DNA of 37,358 nucleotides. Origin: Candidatus Rifleibacteriota bacterium. GTDB taxonomy: Bacteria; Muiribacteriota; Ozemobacteria; Ozemobacterales; Ozemobacteraceae. The notes beneath the pieces were generated by a model that saw only the letters and a program-made list of their open reading frames with translations, was not told the DNA's origin and made no database searches. The stretch is from contig JAQVCG010000013.1 in NCBI GenBank assembly GCA_028689875.1, positions 1 through 37,358 on the forward strand, given 5' to 3'. The position numbers were made by a program, and so were the translations under genes. Below are positions 4,823 through 21,448 of the stretch, one piece after another (the stretch's first letter is position 1; each line of letters starts with the position of its first letter).

Positions 4823-7408
4823 CTATTTACCTTCAAATGCATTTATATACATTTGTTTGATTTCGCTTATCAGCGGATATCTGGGGTTTGCCCCGGTGCA
4901 TTGATCGTCGAATGCTTCTTCACTCATTTCATCTAACCCGGCAAAGAATTTCACTTCAGAAATTCCTGCATCTTTGATGCTTGATGGTATATTGACCACA
5001 TTTTTTAATTTATTAATAGCTTCGATTAAGAGTTCTACTTTTTCTTCATCGCTGTTTCCACCAAGTCTTAAATAATCAGCTATTCTTGCATATCTCCATT
5101 GTGCATTCGGATATTTGTATTGAGGGAATGCTGTTTGTTTGCGCGGGTTGTCAACAGCGTTAAACTTAATAACTTCATTTATTAAAAGTGCATTTGCCAG
5201 CCCGTGTGGCAGGTGATGATGAGCACCCAGTTTATGAGCCATAGAGTGACAGACTCCTAAGAATGCATTCGCAAATGCCATTCCTGCCATAGACGCAGCA
5301 TGCGCCATCTTTTCTCGTGCTTTGAAGTTTGCGCTGCCTTCTGAATAAGCCTGAGGTAAATATTTAAAAACAAGTCTGATAGCTTCGAGAGCCATTCCAT
5401 TTGAGAACTCTGATGCCAAAACAGATACGTAAGCTTCAATGGCATGAACTAAAGCATCTATCCCTGACGCTGCAGTGAGACTTTTGGGCATATCTGACAT
5501 AAGCTCTGCATCTATAATGGCCATGTCGGGAGTTAGCTCATAATCTGCTAACGGGTATTTGACACCTGTTGTTTCATCGGTTATAACCGCAAAAGGTGTT
5601 ACCTCAGAACCGGTGCCGGCTGAAGTCGGTATAGCAACCATTATGGCTTTTTTGCCTAAAGTTGGAAACTTGTAAACTCGTTTTCTGATATCCATAAAAC
5701 GCATTGCTAAGTCTTCGAACCTGACTTCAGGATGCTCATACATTACCCACATAATTTTTGCTGCATCCATTGGCGAGCCGCCACCTAAGGCTATGATTGT
5801 GTCAGGCTCAAACGATATCATTTCTTGAACACCTCGGCGAGCAACGGCCAAAGTCGGGTCAGGTTCAACTCCCGTAAAAATTTTAATCTCTATTCCGTTG
5901 CTTTCTAAAACATGCGTAATTTTATCTACAAATCCTTTATCGAATAAAAATTTGTCGGTTACAATAAAAGCACGTTTTTTACCCAAATCCTTTAATTCAT
6001 CAATGGCAATGCTTAAACACCCGTATTTGAAATAAACTCTTTCCGGCACTCTAAACCACAACATATTTTCTCGTCTTTCTGCTACAGTCTTTATATTTAG
6101 CAAATGTTTGACTCCTACATTCTCAGAAATACTGTTTCCGCCCCAAGATCCGCATCCCAATGTTAATGACGGAGCCAGTTTGAAATTGTAAATGTCGCCG
6201 ATAGCACCTTGTGAAGAAGGCATATTCAAAATTACGCGCCCTGTTTTCATTTTTGCGCTAAACTGTGCTATTCGATCTTTAGAGGTGTTTTGGTCGGTGT
6301 AAAGAACAGATGTGTGCCCAAATCCGCCATGCTCAACCAAAGTTTCAGCCATATTTACGGCTTCATCAAAAGACTGAGCTCTATACATAGCAAGCACAGG
6401 GGAAAGTTTCTCGTGTGCAAAAGGTTCAGACAATTCGACTGAGTCTACTTCTCCAATTAGAATTTTAGTATCTTGGGAAACTTGTATTCCTGCCATTTCT
6501 GCTATTCTCGCAGCACTCTGCCCAACTATATTTGCGTTAAGTTTTCCATTGATTAAAATTATTTGTCTTACAGAGTCAATTTCATCTTCTTTTAAAACAT
6601 ATGCTCCTCTGGCAATGAATTCGTCTCTGACGGAATCATATATTTCATCTAAAACGATTACCGATTGTTCAGATGCGCAAATGACTCCATTATCAAAACT
6701 TTTTGAAAGTAAAATTGAGTTTACAGCCATTTTAATGTGTGCTGTTTCATCAATTATTGCCGGTGTATTACCGGCTCCTACTCCGATAGCCGGTTTGCCT
6801 GATGAATAAGCTGCTTTTACCATTCCCGGACCGCCCGTTGCTAAGGTTAGATCTGTTTCACGCATCACACTTTGAGACAATTCAACAGAAGGTTCGTCTA
6901 TCCAAGCAATTATGTTTTCAGGTGCTCCGGCTTTAAGAGCTGCCTCATATACTATTCGGGCGGCTTCAATTGTTGAATTTTTTGCTCTGGGGTGTGGCGA
7001 AAATATTATGCCATTTCGTGTTTTTAAAGCTAATAAAGCTTTGAATATTGCTGTGGAAGTCGGATTGGTTGTAGGAACAACAGCGGCAATTACGCCAATG
7101 GGCTCTGCTATTTTAGTGATTCCAAATGATTTGTCGTATTCGATTACGCCACAGGTTTTGTCATCTTTGTATTGGTTGTAAATATATTCTGAAGCAAAGT
7201 GATTTTTTATCACCTTATCTTCAACAATGCCCATACCTGTTTCTTCATAAGCTAATTTAGCAAGTTTAATTCTGTTGTTGTTTGCCGCCATAGCAGCTTG
7301 TCGAAATATTTCATCAACCTGTTTCTGAGAAAAACTAGAGAATATTTTCTGCGCCGCTCGAACTTTTTCGATTGTGGTTTTTAGGGTTTCAAGGTTGTTT
7401 ACTGTCAT
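4823..7408 (-). CDS. adhE: Bifunctional acetaldehyde-CoA/alcohol dehydrogenase AdhE
   Basis: Reduces acetyl-CoA to acetaldehyde and then ethanol, re-oxidising two NADH. The 861-residue protein has the two expected halves. The N-terminal aldehyde dehydrogenase domain (about 1-440) has the catalytic cysteine in GVICASEQ at residue 244. The C-terminal iron-dependent alcohol dehydrogenase (about 450-861) has the GGGSPMDAAK nucleotide motif, the DALVHAIEAY metal segment and the HSMAHKLGAHHHLPHG histidines. The ATG follows AAAGGA on the minus strand. It is monocistronic, with a terminator at 4757-4793. Two near-palindromic operators at 7483-7498 and 7516-7531 lie upstream, suggesting Rex (NADH/NAD+) control. 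Confidence 0.97.
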   Translation of the reverse strand: MTVNNLETLKTTIEKVRAAQKIFSSFSQKQVDEIFRQAAMAANNNRIKLAKLAYEETGMGIVEDKVIKNHFASEYIYNQYKDDKTCGVIEYDKSFGITKIAEPIGVIAAVVPTTNPTSTAIFKALLALKTRNGIIFSPHPRAKNSTIEAARIVYEAALKAGAPENIIAWIDEPSVELSQSVMRETDLTLATGGPGMVKAAYSSGKPAIGVGAGNTPAIIDETAHIKMAVNSILLSKSFDNGVICASEQSVIVLDEIYDSVRDEFIARGAYVLKEDEIDSVRQIILINGKLNANIVGQSAARIAEMAGIQVSQDTKILIGEVDSVELSEPFAHEKLSPVLAMYRAQSFDEAVNMAETLVEHGGFGHTSVLYTDQNTSKDRIAQFSAKMKTGRVILNMPSSQGAIGDIYNFKLAPSLTLGCGSWGGNSISENVGVKHLLNIKTVAERRENMLWFRVPERVYFKYGCLSIAIDELKDLGKKRAFIVTDKFLFDKGFVDKITHVLESNGIEIKIFTGVEPDPTLAVARRGVQEMISFEPDTIIALGGGSPMDAAKIMWVMYEHPEVRFEDLAMRFMDIRKRVYKFPTLGKKAIMVAIPTSAGTGSEVTPFAVITDETTGVKYPLADYELTPDMAIIDAELMSDMPKSLTAASGIDALVHAIEAYVSVLASEFSNGMALEAIRLVFKYLPQAYSEGSANFKAREKMAHAASMAGMAFANAFLGVCHSMAHKLGAHHHLPHGLANALLINEVIKFNAVDNPRKQTAFPQYKYPNAQWRYARIADYLRLGGNSDEEKVELLIEAINKLKNVVNIPSSIKDAGISEVKFFAGLDEMSEEAFDDQCTGANPRYPLISEIKQMYINAFEGK

Positions 7409-10941: not shown

Positions 10942-11089
10942 TTGTGCCAATATTGTCGCATTAAGACATATTAGACGCACTTCAGAAATATCTTTGACGA
11001 TTTTTCAAGTTATAGCTTAATAAAAGTCTTGGCAAGATAATTGCTAATAAGAATTATACATTATTTTTATTATTTTTATGGAGCTTATT

Positions 11090-12382
11090 ATGAAAACTTT
11101 ACAAGAGTGGTTAGAGAAAAACAATCCGTTATACCTGATCAGTGTGCTTTTTATGCTTTTGGGACTTTATTTGGCGGGCACAACCATTGATAATCCCGAC
11201 GAAGTGTCTGTTACCGCGATTTTGAGTATATTTGCCATACAAAACGTTTATGAGCTGATCGTTGTGGGTATGGCAATTTATCTATTAAAAAATAAAATCC
11301 AAAGTGAACATGGCAAAATGTTGCTTGCTTTTGGACTTATTTTAATGGGTGATATCACTTTTTACCAAGTAAGAATTTCTTCTTTAAGCACTTTAATCGG
11401 TTGGGGCGCTACGTCTATGTACATCGTATTAGCGCTCGTTAAATTTTATGCAGTAATTAAAATGTTAAACCTTAAGGTTTATAAGAGTAGAATTCTATTT
11501 CTGTTTTCTTCGTTTTTGCTGGTTTGGATTTCTCCAAAGCTAACTTATCTAATTCTTGATTCAACAAACTTTAAGTATGTGTCTGATGTCCCTATAATTT
11601 ACTATATTTGGCTGGCTGCGGCGTTAATACAGCTTCCATTTATCGTAGAAAATTGGAACAAACCTGAGATTCAAGTGCCAATAAGCAATTCCTACTTAGG
11701 TAATGAAACTCAAGTATGGCGCTGGGGAATGATTTTCGCGTTTTTTCTTTTGCCAATACAACTTTTTCTGAATGTCATGGATTCTTATAAAATTATGATG
11801 ACAAATGTGCCTATGGAAACAGTAATTTTACCTTGGGTGATGTGCAGTGTGTATTTTTGCAAAAGCATGTGGCTCAATTTATTTGGTGAATATGAGAAAA
11901 AAATAGATAATACTGTTCTTATAGTTTCGTTTTTAATAATATTTTTCAGACCCCATTTTTCCTTTACAGTACAATTTATTAACTCTGTGTTTTTATTGGT
12001 TTTATCATCAGCAGTATGGCTTAGCCGCAGAAACAAAGTGGGGGCTTTTGTATTTGGACTTTCAGCAACTTTAAGTTTTGGTAATGTTATATCGGGTAGT
12101 CTGGAACTGTTTGCCGAAGATGTTAAAGATGTTTCAAATTCTTTTATGAAGAATCTAGAAGAAATATCCAACTATATTTGTGACAGCATAATTTATTTTA
12201 AAAGAAGTATCACCAAAACCATGCTAGCGTTTATCTTTATTCTTGTTTCGTTTGTTTTTCTTACCTTGGGATTCAAAATGAGCGTTAAGAAAAAAGACGA
12301 TTTAAACAAAGAATATGATTTGAATGAAGAAGACGACCAAAATAAAAAAGGTAATAATGAACCCGATAATGAAGAAAAATGA
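11090..12382 (+). CDS. Polytopic membrane protein of unknown function
   Basis: I do not recognise the family. The 430-residue protein has about ten hydrophobic segments spread from residue 15 to about 395. It ends in a very hydrophilic tail rich in Lys, Asp, Glu and Asn with low-complexity repeats (DLNKEYDLNEEDD). A short soluble stretch (about 345-375) lies before the last span. The start at 11090 is chosen because a GGAG lies just ahead of it in GGAGCTTATT; the in-frame ATG at 11078 overlaps that site. The same leader pattern precedes the antiporter gene at 7844. It lies between dxs and an esterase with 100-150 base gaps on both sides, so it may be its own transcript. Confidence 0.8.
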   Translation: MKTLQEWLEKNNPLYLISVLFMLLGLYLAGTTIDNPDEVSVTAILSIFAIQNVYELIVVGMAIYLLKNKIQSEHGKMLLAFGLILMGDITFYQVRISSLSTLIGWGATSMYIVLALVKFYAVIKMLNLKVYKSRILFLFSSFLLVWISPKLTYLILDSTNFKYVSDVPIIYYIWLAAALIQLPFIVENWNKPEIQVPISNSYLGNETQVWRWGMIFAFFLLPIQLFLNVMDSYKIMMTNVPMETVILPWVMCSVYFCKSMWLNLFGEYEKKIDNTVLIVSFLIIFFRPHFSFTVQFINSVFLLVLSSAVWLSRRNKVGAFVFGLSATLSFGNVISGSLELFAEDVKDVSNSFMKNLEEISNYICDSIIYFKRSITKTMLAFIFILVSFVFLTLGFKMSVKKKDDLNKEYDLNEEDDQNKKGNNEPDNEEK

Positions 12383-16410: not shown

Positions 16411-16453
16411 AAAGCAGCATTAAAAAGGCAGATCTTTTTAATGCTGCTTTTTT
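16411..16453 (+). terminator. Strong intrinsic terminator after glgX
   Basis: AAAGCAGCATTAAAAAG (16411-16427) pairs perfectly with CTTTTTAATGCTGCTTT (16434-16450), a 17-base-pair stem with a 6-base loop. It is followed by further T. It separates glgX from the hydrogenase promoter. Confidence 0.92.
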
Positions 16454-16469
16454 AATATAAATAAAAGCC

Positions 16470-16498
16470 TTGTGAGTTTTTTCACAATCTATTATAAT
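16470..16498 (+). promoter_or_regulatory. Hydrogenase operon promoter with superimposed Rex-like operator
   Basis: TTGTGA-GTTTTT-TCACAA at 16470-16487 has perfect 6-base inverted arms matching the Rex consensus. A perfect TATAAT lies at 16493-16498, exactly 17 bases after the first arm, so TTGTGA doubles as the -35 element. Repressor binding would cover the -35 and spacer. The first gene starts 40 bases downstream at 16538 behind GGAGG. Confidence 0.82.
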
Positions 16499-16537
16499 GT
16501 TTTTAGATGGTTTTAAGAAAATAAATCGGAGGCGTTT

Positions 16538-16831
16538 ATGAGCAATATTTCCGATTCGACAATTGCAAAAAAACATGAAGTCGTTTTATGCATGGGCAGT
16601 GCTTGTTTTACAAGAGGCAATAGGTTAAGTGTTGAAATAATTACTGAGTATTTGAAAAACAATAGAGAAATTGCCGAAAACATTGAATTTCGAGGTTGTT
16701 TATGCTCAGAAAGGTGCAAATCCGCTCCTGTGATAAAAATTGATGAAAAGGTATACGAACAGGTTCCTCCACAGTCGGTTGCAGAACTGTTGAAACATGC
16801 TATCGAAGAGTCGGAGATGACCCATGAATGA
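16538..16831 (+). CDS. Thioredoxin-like [2Fe-2S] ferredoxin (NuoE-like), first copy
   Basis: A 97-residue protein resembling the C-terminal iron-sulfur domain of NuoE/HydC. The [2Fe-2S] ligands fit Cys18-x4-Cys23 and Cys56-x3-Cys60. The CSERCKSAPVIKI stretch is typical (CxxxC followed by AP). An extra cysteine sits at 54. It lacks the N-terminal helical domain of full NuoE. It likely passes electrons to or from the adjacent hydrogenase. The ATG follows GGAGG. The stop overlaps the next start by 8 bases, so the two are translationally coupled. Confidence 0.9.
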   Translation: MSNISDSTIAKKHEVVLCMGSACFTRGNRLSVEIITEYLKNNREIAENIEFRGCLCSERCKSAPVIKIDEKVYEQVPPQSVAELLKHAIEESEMTHE

Positions 16832-18566
16832 ATTAAGACCCATATATACAAAAAAAGCTGATTGCCAAGATTGTTATAAATGCGTTAGAGAGTGCCCTGT
16901 AAAGGCTATTAAAATTGAAGATAACAGTGCTTGTATTGTTGATGAATTGTGTATTCATTGCGGAAAATGCGTTTTAGTTTGTCCTTCCGGTGCAAAAAAG
17001 ATTCGTAATGATGTTGCAAAAGTGAGACAGGCGCTAGACATGGGAAGAAACGTTATTCTTTCGGTAGCTCCTTCATGGCGCGCTGAATTTGTTGATTTAC
17101 ATTCATCACAGCTTATCTCAGCAATTAAAAAGTTGGGTTTTACTCAGGTGTCTGAAACGGCTATCGGTGCTCAGATGGTTTCAAAAGGTGTTGCTGATTT
17201 TATTGATAGTTCAGAAAGTAAATTGTTTCTTTCGACGGCTTGTCCAACAGTTGTTGAAATGATGTATAAATATTATCCAAAGTTTGTTCCTTATTTTACT
17301 CCGTTGGTTTCGCCTCTTGCGGCACATGTTAAATACTTGGCAACTATATCAGCTCCAAATACTCAGTTTGCTTTTGTTGGACCTTGTGCGGCTAAAAAAG
17401 TCGAATTTGACTTGTTTAATGAGCAAATTTTAGCTGCTTTGACTTTTGAGAATTTGCATAAATGGTTTGAAGAGTCAAATATTGACCCATATGCTTTAAA
17501 TATTAATAACTCTGAAACGTTTTACCCTTTTGATTCTTCAGATGGTGGGCTATACCCAATAGATGGAGGCATGATCGCGGGTATAAAAGGTCGCTTGAAA
17601 AAACGCGATGTGGAGTTTATGTCTTTTTCCGGAATTAAAGCCATAAATGCCGCAATGGGAGATTTAGATAAAATTTCACCTAACAGGCAGATTTTTATTG
17701 AGCTTTTGGCTTGTGGCGGAGGATGCGTAAATGGTCCCGGTATGAGGCATAAAGACTCTACTGTTCTTAAACGTGATAATGTTTACAGCAATGTAGTAAA
17801 GATAATAGACACAGAGAAGCCGTTATATGGAATTGACATAGCTGCAGATATAAAAATTAAGCCAATAAGTGCAGGAGTTTATCCTGAACCTATGATTAGA
17901 AGTGCTTTGCAAAGAGTTGGCAAAACGTCTTTAAAAGACGAGTTAAATTGTGGCAGCTGCGGCTACGATTCGTGTCGTGATTTTGCAGTTGCTCTTTTAA
18001 ATGGAAAAGCGATGGAAAACATGTGTGCATCTTATATGCGCAAGCTAGCCAGTAAAAAGGCAAATGCATTAATTAAGGCAATGCCTGCAGGTGTTGTAAT
18101 TGCTGACTCGGCAATGCGAATTATTGAGTGTAACAGGCATTTTGCATCGATTTTCGGTTCAGAAATAGAGATGATTTTTGAGGCAACTCCGGGATTAGAA
18201 GGGGCTATGTTGAATAAAATAGTTCCATTTTATAAGCTTTTTCAAAAAGTATTGGTAACAGGCGAGGATTTGGTTGATTACGAGATGGATTACAACAGTC
18301 ACAGATTGAATATTTCAGTTTTTTCCATAGAAAAAGACCAAGTGGTTGGCGCTGTAATTCAAGATGTAAGAGTTCCGCATGTTAGAAGAGAACAGGTGAT
18401 AAAAAGAGTTGAAGAAGTAATTAAACTAAATTTGGAAACCGTTCAAAAAATAGCTTATTTGCTGGGCGAGAATGCTTCAGAAACAGAAATTCGTTTGAAC
18501 AATGTATTAGAGGCCTTTAAAGAAACACCGGAGGTTGATAATGGAGTTCATGCCGAAAACATCTGA
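16824..18566 (+). CDS. hydS: Putative sensory [FeFe]-hydrogenase with PAS domain (HydS-like)
   Basis: A 580-residue modular protein. Two [4Fe-4S] clusters (Cys14/17/20/24 and Cys43/46/49/53) are followed by the H-cluster domain (about 75-350) with TACPT (Cys140), GPCAAKK (Cys188) and CGGGC (Cys297, Cys301). An Fe-S motif CGSCG..SC (Cys376, 379, 384, then Cys401) comes next, then a PAS domain (about 414-520) and a C-terminal helix. All H-cluster ligands are kept, but the proton-relay cysteine of TSCCP is replaced by Ala139. That change, plus the PAS domain, is characteristic of group C sensory hydrogenases such as Thermotoga HydS, which have low activity and are thought to sense H2. The start is backed by GGAG seven bases ahead. 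The downstream phosphatase overlaps it and is the likely output partner. Confidence 0.88.
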   Translation: MNELRPIYTKKADCQDCYKCVRECPVKAIKIEDNSACIVDELCIHCGKCVLVCPSGAKKIRNDVAKVRQALDMGRNVILSVAPSWRAEFVDLHSSQLISAIKKLGFTQVSETAIGAQMVSKGVADFIDSSESKLFLSTACPTVVEMMYKYYPKFVPYFTPLVSPLAAHVKYLATISAPNTQFAFVGPCAAKKVEFDLFNEQILAALTFENLHKWFEESNIDPYALNINNSETFYPFDSSDGGLYPIDGGMIAGIKGRLKKRDVEFMSFSGIKAINAAMGDLDKISPNRQIFIELLACGGGCVNGPGMRHKDSTVLKRDNVYSNVVKIIDTEKPLYGIDIAADIKIKPISAGVYPEPMIRSALQRVGKTSLKDELNCGSCGYDSCRDFAVALLNGKAMENMCASYMRKLASKKANALIKAMPAGVVIADSAMRIIECNRHFASIFGSEIEMIFEATPGLEGAMLNKIVPFYKLFQKVLVTGEDLVDYEMDYNSHRLNISVFSIEKDQVVGAVIQDVRVPHVRREQVIKRVEEVIKLNLETVQKIAYLLGENASETEIRLNNVLEAFKETPEVDNGVHAENI

Positions 18567-19740
18567 TTGTGCCATAGAAGTTGATTATTGCCAAAAATAC
18601 TGCGAAAAGAAGCGAATTGGCGGTGATGTTTTTTTATCTAAAAAATTAAAAGAGCAGAGCAGGGTGTTGGCTGTGCTTTCAGATGGTTTGGGAAGTGGCG
18701 TTAAAGCAGGTGTTTTAGCAACTTTAACCTCAGTTATGGGTCTTAACTACATGGGAAGCTTCAGAGACCCTGCCAAAGCTGCGAAGAGTATAATGGAAAC
18801 ATTGCCTGTCTGTTCGAAAAGACATATAAGTTACAGTACCTTTTCGATGGTTGATATAGATTTTGACAAAGAAGTAAGAATTGTAGAATATGATAATCCG
18901 CCGGTTTTGATTACCCGCAACGGTTCTCTTATGGACACGAAAAAACAAAAAGCAGACGTATTAAGAGCAGATAAAGAGCCGGTGCAGATACAGGTTTCAG
19001 GCTTTGATGCAAAAATAGGCGATAGAATAGTAATGTTTTCTGACGGTGTCAGTCAAAGCGGAATCGGCAGCAAAGAGCTTCCGTTTGGCTGGGGCATAGA
19101 GAGGGTGAGCGATTTTATACTGGAAAAAATAGCATTAAACCCTGAAATATCTGCTCATGAGCTTTCTCGAGCTATTGTAGAAAAATCATGGTTAAATAAT
19201 TCACATAAAGCCTTAGATGATATTACTTGCGGTGTAATTTACTTTCGAAATCCAAGGCGCTTGTTAATAATGACAGGCCCGCCATATGACCGTCAAAAGG
19301 ACAAACTACTTGCATCGCTTGTAGAAGAGTTTCCCGGCAAAAAAATAATATGTGGAGGCACTACCGCAAATATTATTTCAAGAGAAACGGGGCGAAAGGT
19401 TCAGGTAAGACTTGATCGACTGAGTGCTGATTTGCCTCCAGAGTCAATAATGGACGGTGCAGATTTGGTAACTGAAGGCATTTTAACGATTGGCAGAGCT
19501 GCAAAATATCTTGAAAATAAAACTGAGCTAGATTTGTTTACAGATGACCCGGGGGCAAAGATTGTTAAATTGATGCTTGACAGCGATGTTATCAATTTTG
19601 TTGTGGGCACCAGAATCAATGAGTTCCATCAAGACCCCAATATGCCTGTTGACTTAGAAATTAGAAGAAATGTCATAAAGAAAATATCGAAACTGCTTGA
19701 AGAGCAATATTATAAAGAAACTACCATTCAATATATTTAA
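18541..19740 (+). CDS. SpoIIE/PP2C-type protein phosphatase with extra C-terminal domain
   Basis: A 399-residue protein. The N-terminal 235 residues form a SpoIIE-like PP2C domain with the metal-binding aspartates in LSDGLGSG (Asp48), FSDGVSQSG (Asp168) and LDDIT (Asp226/227). The following 160 residues (from RRLLIMTGPPYD) are a separate domain that I do not recognise. It should remove phosphate from Ser/Thr of a partner, as in anti-sigma-antagonist switches. The start at 18541 is chosen because GGAGG lies six bases before it; a TTG further upstream is less likely. The gene overlaps the sensory hydrogenase gene by 26 bases, so the two are coupled. No matching kinase or STAS-domain target is present in the window. 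Confidence 0.88.
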   Translation: MEFMPKTSDCAIEVDYCQKYCEKKRIGGDVFLSKKLKEQSRVLAVLSDGLGSGVKAGVLATLTSVMGLNYMGSFRDPAKAAKSIMETLPVCSKRHISYSTFSMVDIDFDKEVRIVEYDNPPVLITRNGSLMDTKKQKADVLRADKEPVQIQVSGFDAKIGDRIVMFSDGVSQSGIGSKELPFGWGIERVSDFILEKIALNPEISAHELSRAIVEKSWLNNSHKALDDITCGVIYFRNPRRLLIMTGPPYDRQKDKLLASLVEEFPGKKIICGGTTANIISRETGRKVQVRLDRLSADLPPESIMDGADLVTEGILTIGRAAKYLENKTELDLFTDDPGAKIVKLMLDSDVINFVVGTRINEFHQDPNMPVDLEIRRNVIKKISKLLEEQYYKETTIQYI

Positions 19741-19755
19741 CATAAGGAGTCTGTT

Positions 19756-20004
19756 GTGAGTAAAAAGTTTAAAGTTTCTATTTGTTCCGGCACTACCTGT
19801 TATGTCTTGGGCGGAGCACAGATGATGCTCTTAGAAGATTGTTTGCCTGTTGACATCAAAGACGATGTTGAGGTTGTGGGTTCATCTTGTCTTCAAAAGT
19901 GTCATGAGCCAAATGCTAAGCCGCCTTTTGTTCAAATTAACGATTATGTTATGGAATCGGCAAGTCTGACAAAGGTTATTGATTACATCCGAGAACACAG
20001 ATAA
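19756..20004 (+). CDS. Thioredoxin-like [2Fe-2S] ferredoxin (NuoE-like), second copy
   Basis: An 82-residue protein of the same type as the one at 16538, with Cys10-x4-Cys15 and Cys45-x3-Cys49 as [2Fe-2S] ligands. The two are not near-identical copies: the second has a longer turn after the CxxxC (HEPNAKPP) and no third cysteine next to it. The start codon is GTG, with AAGGAG at 19744-19749. It precedes the catalytic hydrogenase gene just as the first copy precedes the sensory one. Confidence 0.88.
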   Translation: MSKKFKVSICSGTTCYVLGGAQMMLLEDCLPVDIKDDVEVVGSSCLQKCHEPNAKPPFVQINDYVMESASLTKVIDYIREHR

Positions 20005-20008
20005 ATAT

Positions 20009-21448
20009 ATGAATTACATAAATAACGCAGCAATAATTAAAAGACAAGTTATGGTTCGTTTGGCAAAGTTAATATTTGACGATACTTTAAAAGACAACAT
20101 AGACCTTATTCCCGTTTTAATGACTCCCAAAAACTCAGAATCAGTTAGATGCTGCATTCATCATGACCGGGCTGTTCTAAAAAGCAGAGTAAAGGTTTTG
20201 CTTGGTTTTACTGCAGCAAGCGACACTCAAGCTGATGAAGTTAAATTATTGAAAGAGTATGCCGGCGATGCAGAACAGCAAGGCGAAGACAGGTTCGACG
20301 ACAGAATTTTGACAGTTATAGACGATGCTTGTTCTGCGTGCATTAGAGCTAAATACCAGGTTACTAATGCTTGCAGAGGCTGTGTGGCACGACCGTGTAT
20401 AATGAATTGTCCTAAAAAAGCTATTCGCTTTGAACGCGGCCATGCAATAATTGATGAAAATTTATGTGTCAGCTGCGGAATTTGCGAAAAGGTATGCCCT
20501 TATCATGCCATAGTTTATCAGCCGATTCCTTGCGAGGAAGCGTGCCCTGTTAATGCGATAAGCAAAGATGAATTTGGCAAAGAAAAAATAGATCCGCAAA
20601 AGTGTGTTTACTGCGGTAAGTGCATGTTGGCTTGCCCGTTTGGGGCCATAATGGAACGTTCTGAAATGTTTGATATTTTAAGAGACATAAAGAATCGTGA
20701 TAAAATGACGGTAGCTATGGTCGCGCCATCTATTGCAGGGCAATTTAACACAGATTTCGGCAAAATAGTGTCGGCCCTTAAAAAACTAGGTTTTGATAAA
20801 GTAGTTGAAGTCGCTTATGGCGCAGATATTACAGCTCAGAAAGAAACTGAAGAGTTTATAGAACGCCTTGGACATAAACAAACGCTTATGACGTCGTCTT
20901 GTTGTCCTGCTTATGTTCAGATTATTAAAAAGCATATTCCATCAATGCGCTCTTATGTGTCAGACACCTATAGTCCCATGATATACACGGGCGAGTGGGT
21001 TTCAAACCAGTGGCCCGGGGCAGCCCGCGTTTTTATAGGCCCTTGCGTAGCAAAGAGGTTTGAGGCACGCGAATCAGCTTATGTTGACAATGTTATGACC
21101 TATGAAGAGCTTGGATCGATTCTTATAGCCGCCGGTGTTGATGTGGTTGAGTGTGATGATCAAGAACCTGATAAATCTGCAAGTATTATTGGAAGGGGCT
21201 TTGCCGTGTCGGGCGGTGTTTCGAATGCTGTTCTTGCAAGCGCTGCCTCCAGAGGTGTAAATGCAGTAGGCAAGCCAATTAATGGAATTAATAACAAAAC
21301 TGTTTCGCTGTTGAAAGTATTGGATAAAACTATTAAAGAGCCGGCATTTATAGAGGTAATGACCTGTGAGGGCGGTTGTCTTAACGGGCCGGGAGTGACG
21401 AGCAGTCCTGTTGTTGCGAAAAAATTCCTTGATAAGATGCTTAAATAA
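20009..21448 (+). CDS. Catalytic-type monomeric [FeFe]-hydrogenase
   Basis: Produces or oxidises H2 using ferredoxin-type electrons. The 479-residue protein has a helical N-terminal region (about 1-105) and then a cysteine-dense ferredoxin region (109-209). That region has at least two clear [4Fe-4S] motifs (CVSCGICEKVCP, CVYCGKCMLACP) and further cysteine groups (CRGCVARPCIMNCP, CEEACP). The H-cluster domain has SSCCPAY (relay Cys298, ligand Cys299), GPCVAKR (Cys346) and CEGGC (Cys453, Cys457), all intact. It therefore looks catalytically competent, unlike the sensory paralogue. The start at ATG 20009 gives MNYINNAAIIKR, typical of the family; a TTG at 19979 behind AAAGG is an alternative. 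Maturation genes hydE, hydF and hydG are not in the window. Confidence 0.93.
   Translation: MNYINNAAIIKRQVMVRLAKLIFDDTLKDNIDLIPVLMTPKNSESVRCCIHHDRAVLKSRVKVLLGFTAASDTQADEVKLLKEYAGDAEQQGEDRFDDRILTVIDDACSACIRAKYQVTNACRGCVARPCIMNCPKKAIRFERGHAIIDENLCVSCGICEKVCPYHAIVYQPIPCEEACPVNAISKDEFGKEKIDPQKCVYCGKCMLACPFGAIMERSEMFDILRDIKNRDKMTVAMVAPSIAGQFNTDFGKIVSALKKLGFDKVVEVAYGADITAQKETEEFIERLGHKQTLMTSSCCPAYVQIIKKHIPSMRSYVSDTYSPMIYTGEWVSNQWPGAARVFIGPCVAKRFEARESAYVDNVMTYEELGSILIAAGVDVVECDDQEPDKSASIIGRGFAVSGGVSNAVLASAASRGVNAVGKPINGINNKTVSLLKVLDKTIKEPAFIEVMTCEGGCLNGPGVTSSPVVAKKFLDKMLK

Follow-up and report, generated by a model that had tools for sequence, protein, structure and literature searches.

A probable H2- or redox-signalling operon in a Riflebacteria-related bacterium: a group C sensory [FeFe] hydrogenase, a SpoIIE-type phosphatase and a group B hydrogenase

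The window, that is, the whole stretch of 37,358 nucleotides analysed here, belongs to a genome bin of 2.38 Mb (70.8% complete) from a little-studied anaerobic bacterium most closely related to Candidatus Riflebacteria MAGs and to bacterium ADurb.Bin157, the latter with a phosphatase 94% identical to the one described below. Positions 16538-21448 hold five genes of the same direction, which encode a Trx-like protein, a sensor hydrogenase, a SpoIIE phosphatase, a second Trx-like protein and a second hydrogenase. An earlier sequence-only reading had named the sensor, the phosphatase and the catalytic hydrogenase, all of which are present, and had overlooked the two Trx-like genes; nor had it mentioned the terminator upstream. 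The genes and their borders are the following:

16411-16450, plus strand: intrinsic terminator of glgX (17-bp perfect stem, 6-nt loop, T tail), the upstream border of the unit
16470-16498, plus strand: weak promoter-like sequence TTGTGA-17-TATAAT 5' of the operon, 10/12 consensus matches
16538-16831, plus strand: Trx-like [2Fe-2S] ferredoxin of 97 aa, in the hfsA position (PF01257, 39.1 bits, cut-off 24.8)
16824-18566, plus strand: sensor [FeFe] hydrogenase of 580 aa, HydS/HfsB type, group C (C3-like), from Pfam, the alignment with R. albus HydS and the tree
18541-19740, plus strand: SpoIIE/PP2C (PPM) phosphatase with a C-terminal domain (CTD), 399 aa, ATG start, from PF07228 and AlphaFold2/Foldseek
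19756-20004, plus strand: second Trx-like [2Fe-2S] protein, 82 aa, GTG start (PF01257, E 2e-4, 21.7 bits)
20009-21448, plus strand: group B [FeFe] hydrogenase in the HfsD/HydA2 position, 479 aa, ATG start, from TIGR04105 and the tree

The first Trx-like gene overlaps the sensor gene by 8 bases, the sensor and phosphatase genes overlap by the 26 bases already noted in the sequence-only reading, and the remaining gaps measure 15 and 4 bases. Together with the strong hairpin terminator upstream (-21.7 kcal/mol in a ViennaRNA fold), this spacing points to a single predicted transcription unit. Promoter-like sites are not more numerous in the region than in shuffled sequences. The second Trx-like protein falls just under the PF01257 cut-off of 24.8 bits, and its gene is kept at the same place in relatives. 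The open reading frame of the second hydrogenase extends to 489 aa from a TTG within the upstream gene, and to 479 aa from the ATG at 20009. Elsewhere in the window, a 434-aa open reading frame at 11078-12382 apparently encodes a membrane-bound protein, for which Pfam gives no match.

All the features previously read from the sensor, namely the TACP motif with Ala139, an Fe-S motif, a PAS domain and a C-terminal helix, were recovered by Pfam, alignment and the sequence itself. They lie within the sensor gene as follows:

17238-17240, plus strand: codon of Ala139 at the proton-relay position (CpI C299), from alignments and sequence
17949-18026, plus strand: C-terminal Fe-S motif Cx2Cx4Cx16C, C376-C401 (PF04060, 38.4 bits, residues 374-401)
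18066-18383, plus strand: PAS domain, about residues 415-520 (PAS_8, 29 bits, cut-off 21.8)
18384-18533, plus strand: C-terminal helix, the proposed phosphatase-contacting element, from the alignment

The hydrogenase domain matches PF02906 at 130 bits, and the cysteines comprise those of two N-terminal 4Fe-4S clusters (C14-C53), the H-cluster ligands C140, C188, C297 and C301, and the C-terminal set C376-C401, in which CGSCGYDSCRDFAVALLNGKAMENMC fits Cx2Cx4Cx16C exactly. The PAS_8 match itself covers residues 415-451, and the outer limit of the domain is an estimate from the alignment with R. albus HydS. The core of the C-terminal helix is the better conserved part: mean identity among seven divergent sensors is 53% there against 29% in the PAS domain, and residues Q541, A544 and L547-G548-E549 are invariant in the alignment. 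The surroundings of the H-cluster fit those of TmHydS, with Ala at the relay position (A139 here, in the motif STACP; A131 in TmHydS) and Gly at the Met353 position (G186 here; G177 in TmHydS).

The proposal that the first protein is a group C sensor is upheld by the H-domain tree, whereas loss of the relay cysteine as the mark of that group is not. TACP or SACP is the motif in every Riflebacteria sensor of the two main branches. The relay cysteine is kept, and the proline changed instead (SSCCH), in R. albus, in Monoglobus and in those Riflebacteria copies that resemble R. albus, and the Acetoanaerobium sensor reads SSCP. Among HydDB sensory sequences, the relay position is Cys in 17% and Ala in about 43% (PMC10055695). 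Given the SSCCH and SSCP sensors and this 17% of cysteine, the substitution as read from these sequences is typical of sensors and not defining.

The tree comprised 48 rows of groups A, B and C, without a group D reference, with row labels taken from motifs and named records as reference points: R. albus HydS (group C according to PMC6776011), NCBI-annotated group A enzymes and monomeric TIGR04105 enzymes. It separates group C (21 rows, 100/99), group A (12 rows, 100/99) and group B (15 rows, 82/86), and places the first hydrogenase in the group C clade with R. albus HydS (support 100/99), apart from A and B. A catalytic group is thereby ruled out for the sensor. Group D, the TamHydS type, is ruled out as well by the presence of the PAS domain, which is absent from that group (PMC8163306). 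The sensor has two N-terminal 4Fe-4S clusters, the H-cluster cysteines, the Cx2Cx4Cx16C motif, the PAS domain and an adjacent SpoIIE phosphatase; from these features and the tree it can be classed as HydDB C3-like.

The second hydrogenase retains SSCCP and every H-cluster ligand cysteine, as had been claimed. It scores 521 bits against TIGR04105 (cut-off 450) and falls on the group B side of the tree (82/86) as sister of Bacteroidetes enzymes (99/95); TIGR04105 and the tree rule out group A. With the group B enzymes of Bacteroides and with CpIII it shares the TIGR04105 family, the F/G pair at FIGPC and ferredoxin-type Fe-S motifs, but these enzymes have TSCCP or, in CpIII, TSCCCP in place of SSCCP (PMC12138974, PMC12578642), and the enzyme described here lies in a sensor operon. 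Ferredoxin-dependent H2 production is known for Bacteroides group B enzymes (PMC12578642), and the second hydrogenase is probably ferredoxin-dependent too. The maturases HydG and HydF were not found in its own bin (G000; 70.8% complete), and the sister genome G014:C15 has both together.

The identity of the phosphatase as a SpoIIE/PP2C enzyme was confirmed by PF07228 (50.4 bits, cut-off 25, residues 40-233) and by its AlphaFold2 model (pLDDT 79.7), for which Foldseek returned SpoIIE (5mqh, E 1.1e-13). The metal-binding residues D48, D168 and D227 are invariant in 12/12 phosphatases. The protein has no N-terminal helix of its own, the first strand of the model starting at residue 11. Its most distinctive part follows the catalytic domain:

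19255-19737, plus strand: CTD, about residues 239-399 (~160 residues), with a predicted Rossmann-like alpha/beta fold

The sequence-only reading could not identify this domain, and our searches gave nothing firm either: no Pfam family exceeded its cut-off over residues ~239-399, the PDB sequence-profile search yielded no convincing relative, and Foldseek with a CTD-only model found nothing in the PDB at E <= 0.001 (best E 7e-3, TM < 0.45). The AlphaFold2 model of the CTD (pLDDT 86, pTM 0.83) confidently predicts a Rossmann-like alpha/beta domain. A weak Pfam match to NBD_C in one CTD homologue (E 0.0013, below the cut-off) is a lead only, and a similarity to FIST (E 0.067) was dismissed as chance. 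The domain is kept in every member, with motifs of the types GPP, G-T-T/S, PP, DL(V/I)TEG and VG...N..H, and across 40 genomes it is restricted to these phosphatases; no free-standing or otherwise fused copy occurs in those genomes or in plasmids.

Gene order was compared across the phylum and beyond, and the association of this phosphatase with such hydrogenases holds throughout the phylum and in Firmicutes, as the sequence-only reading had expected. Forty genomes of the phylum contain 18 full-length sensors, 17 of which adjoin a CTD phosphatase; the remaining one (in G019) stops about 105 bases short of the contig end. Relatives of a second type (n=13) match the sensor only up to the Fe-S motif, and none of them adjoins a CTD phosphatase (Fisher P about 7e-8 for 17/18 vs 0/13, a value that overstates the independent evidence, since the genomes are related). 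R. albus and Monoglobus have the pair as well, which shows that sensor and phosphatase stay together across phyla. One relative of the second type (L074 4908-6944, in G026:C145) is a sensory-type hydrogenase with HisKA and HATPase domains and adjoins a hydrogenase gene of the NADH-linked type; its kinase-linked domains were checked in this case alone, and there are 12 similar places. A single-sequence scan of genome contigs returned only four Riflebacteria-type loci.

The operon is a new example of a system that has already been described as HydDB C3, as R. albus hydS and as hfsABCD. Its gene content, order and proposed role have been published for R. albus and Thermoanaerobacterium and classed as HydDB C3. 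Its presence will not surprise a specialist; the modest additions made here are a CTD specific to this family, pairs present in duplicate and an input that has been exchanged. HydDB C3, the phosphatase-linked class, shares the group C H-domain, the PAS domain and the adjacent Ser/Thr phosphatase (PMC5037454), and we found no difference that would exclude the operon from it. The hydS locus of R. albus 7 (pRUMAL01, NC_014824) has the same order of Trx-like protein, HydS, SpoIIE phosphatase with CTD and TIGR04105 hydrogenase, in a plasmid block of phosphotransferase, two Trx-like genes, hydS, SpoIIE and hydA2 (577 bits against TIGR04105) behind rex and adhE. It differs as follows: HydS is 29% identical to our sensor and keeps the relay cysteine (SSCCH); the cluster contains rex, adhE and the phosphotransferase, which the present operon lacks; and both Trx-like genes precede hydS, whereas here one lies 3' of the phosphatase. 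The gene order also matches the Thermoanaerobacterium operon of hfsA, the PAS-hydrogenase HfsB, the phosphatase HfsC and the ferredoxin-linked hydrogenase HfsD (PMC11837493, PMC5707799), a likeness drawn from the published description and, for the first gene, from position; Riflebacteria have an extra Trx-like gene between phosphatase and hydrogenase. An AdhE-like bifunctional aldehyde/alcohol dehydrogenase is encoded in our window at 4823-7408 on the minus strand, ~9 kb from the operon and on the opposite strand; R. albus, G020 and G019 have such a gene inside their hydS cluster, and AdhE is the proposed output in Thermoanaerobacterium.

Published experiments on these two systems bear on function. 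The R. albus cluster of group C sensor, hydrogenase and adhE goes down 111-fold in co-culture with an H2 consumer (PMC6776011). In Thermoanaerobacterium, deletion of hfsB leads to higher hydrogenase and alcohol dehydrogenase activity, and a high ethanol yield requires hfsC and hfsD (PMC5707799). HfsB is thus a brake in Thermoanaerobacterium, whereas R. albus lowers its cluster once the partner removes H2. These data also weigh on another idea, in which the first protein would join the group B enzyme in a single hydrogenase complex, as a slow catalytic or electron-transfer subunit, and the phosphatase would be incidental. Purified TmHydS and TamHydS do turn over H2 slowly (PMC8163306, PMC10055695), and our sensor has all H-cluster ligands; against this, the PAS domain and helix are conserved, the phosphatase gene overlaps the sensor gene and the linkage is near-complete, and loss of hfsB raises hydrogenase activity instead of lowering it (PMC5707799). 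We therefore regard such a subunit role as very unlikely.

The loci of the phylum vary in their partners. The group B enzyme occurs at nine loci, including the present one, and at L045 and L049 the adjoining hydrogenase is of group A. At L039 (G027), L040 (G025) and L041 (G026), one group B hydrogenase is flanked by two divergent sensor-phosphatase pairs (about 30% identical). G020 (L044) and G019 (L076) have an R. albus-like locus of adhE, phosphotransferase, two Trx-like genes and hydS; in the tree, sensor and hydrogenase of G020 branch with their R. albus counterparts, so that horizontal transfer is the probable origin of this locus. In G024 (L042/L075, G024:C24), the CTD phosphatase is paired with an FeS-PAS-PAS protein without a hydrogenase domain, among genes for a response regulator, a Cache histidine kinase, NuoE and NuoF. 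Common to this protein and the sensor are the Fe-S motif, PAS domain and C-terminal helix, with 42% identity over residues 415-567 of the sensor; this likeness is the best sequence evidence that the PAS domain and helix may form the surface contacting the phosphatase.

The G024 arrangement, in which the FeS-PAS-helix protein and phosphatase of L042 adjoin NuoE/NuoF-like diaphorase genes, also fits a different account, in which reduced ferredoxin or NADH would supply the sensor with electrons by way of its ferredoxin domain and the Trx-like 2Fe-2S proteins, the H-cluster would merely equilibrate with H2, and the phosphatase would report the overall reduction state. Two further facts favour it. 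First, both Trx-like proteins are retained in the operon and in relatives. Second, T. saccharolyticum shows one and the same phenotype whether HfsA or HfsB is deleted (PMC5707799). We nevertheless hold this account to be somewhat unlikely, as 17/18 cases keep a hydrogenase partner with H-cluster ligands, which is beyond the needs of a redox relay.

From the observed gene content, domains, motifs, phylogeny, conserved linkage and intact metal ligands of the phosphatase, we conclude that the locus is probably a HydS/Hfs-type operon for H2 (or redox) signalling; what we infer is that H2 is bound, that the helix controls the phosphatase, what the phosphatase acts on and in which direction the cell responds. 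The group C hydrogenase would bind H2 at its H-cluster and serve as the sensor, and the state of the metal clusters or of the surrounding protein would be relayed to the PAS domain and to the conserved helix at the C-terminus. Such a signal is likelier to be a change of conformation than a relay of electrons, since the C-terminal cluster of TamHydS does not change its redox state under H2. The helix would then contact the neighbouring SpoIIE/PPM phosphatase and switch it in trans, so that the pair would represent a split version of RsbP, the PAS-coiled coil-PPM phosphatase of B. subtilis. The general stress phosphatases have a sensor, PAS or otherwise, connected through crossing helices to the PPM domain, which becomes active when these helices are ordered (PMC12143880). 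Here two overlapping genes divide this order of PAS, helix and PPM between them, and since the phosphatase lacks a helix at its N-terminus, the sensor helix may replace the linker helix in trans. The resemblance to RsbP/RsbU, in which PAS and helix are coupled to a SpoIIE-type PPM domain, is a functional analogy: here sensor and phosphatase are separate genes, with an extra CTD and no known STAS partner. Membership among the RsbP-type general stress phosphatases was rejected, as the sensor is not N-terminal on the same chain.

Once switched, the phosphatase would dephosphorylate Ser/Thr of a putative target, most likely a partner protein that controls transcription, and this would set the expression level of the co-transcribed group B hydrogenase and probably of other fermentation genes such as adhE. 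The bin contains four STAS genes and two RsbW-type ATPase genes as possible targets; no STAS gene lies within the operon, so that a partner-switching target is a guess. The phosphatase could instead act directly and post-translationally on metabolic enzymes (the hydrogenase, AdhE), with the CTD docking them. T. saccharolyticum shows an increase in NADH-linked ADH activity that ALDH activity does not match, which the authors read as partly post-transcriptional control (PMC5707799). We judge direct action unlikely: the response of R. albus consists of large transcript changes (PMC6776011), adhE transcripts are up in the hfsA and hfsB mutants (PMC5707799), and the substrates of SpoIIE and RsbU are STAS proteins (PMC11418112). 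More tentatively, and as a possibility that we would not yet favour, the CTD may be an undescribed ligand-binding Rossmann-like domain, confined to SpoIIE phosphatases linked to hydrogenases or redox proteins, that serves as a second input or as a dedicated docking site; the phosphatase would then integrate H2 with a metabolite signal, the LGE helix of the sensor would supply in trans the linker that this RsbP-like phosphatase lacks, and inputs would be exchangeable between an H-cluster and a NuoEF-associated FeS-PAS protein.

The operon bears on the question of how sensory [FeFe] hydrogenases relay their signals, and a 2026 paper on TamHydS calls for the identification of interaction partners (PMC13104023). 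Candidates for reconstitution are the one phosphatase subtype that pairs almost invariably with the sensor, the conserved helix kept in a protein without a hydrogenase domain, and the family-specific CTD. In the signalling operon as we read it, a sluggish sensor hydrogenase and a phosphatase probably report the H2 or redox state, by which the cell tunes the enzyme that makes H2; control of fermentation by H2 is relevant to digesters, rumen methane and ethanol production. Viral contigs gave few matches, on bacterial-looking contigs. One contig filed as viral (L059/L060, IMGVR_UViG_3300010275_000261) contains a sensor and a phosphatase beside a long open reading frame whose start resembles a serine recombinase, and is likely a case of a mobile element inserted next to a bacterial hydrogenase locus.
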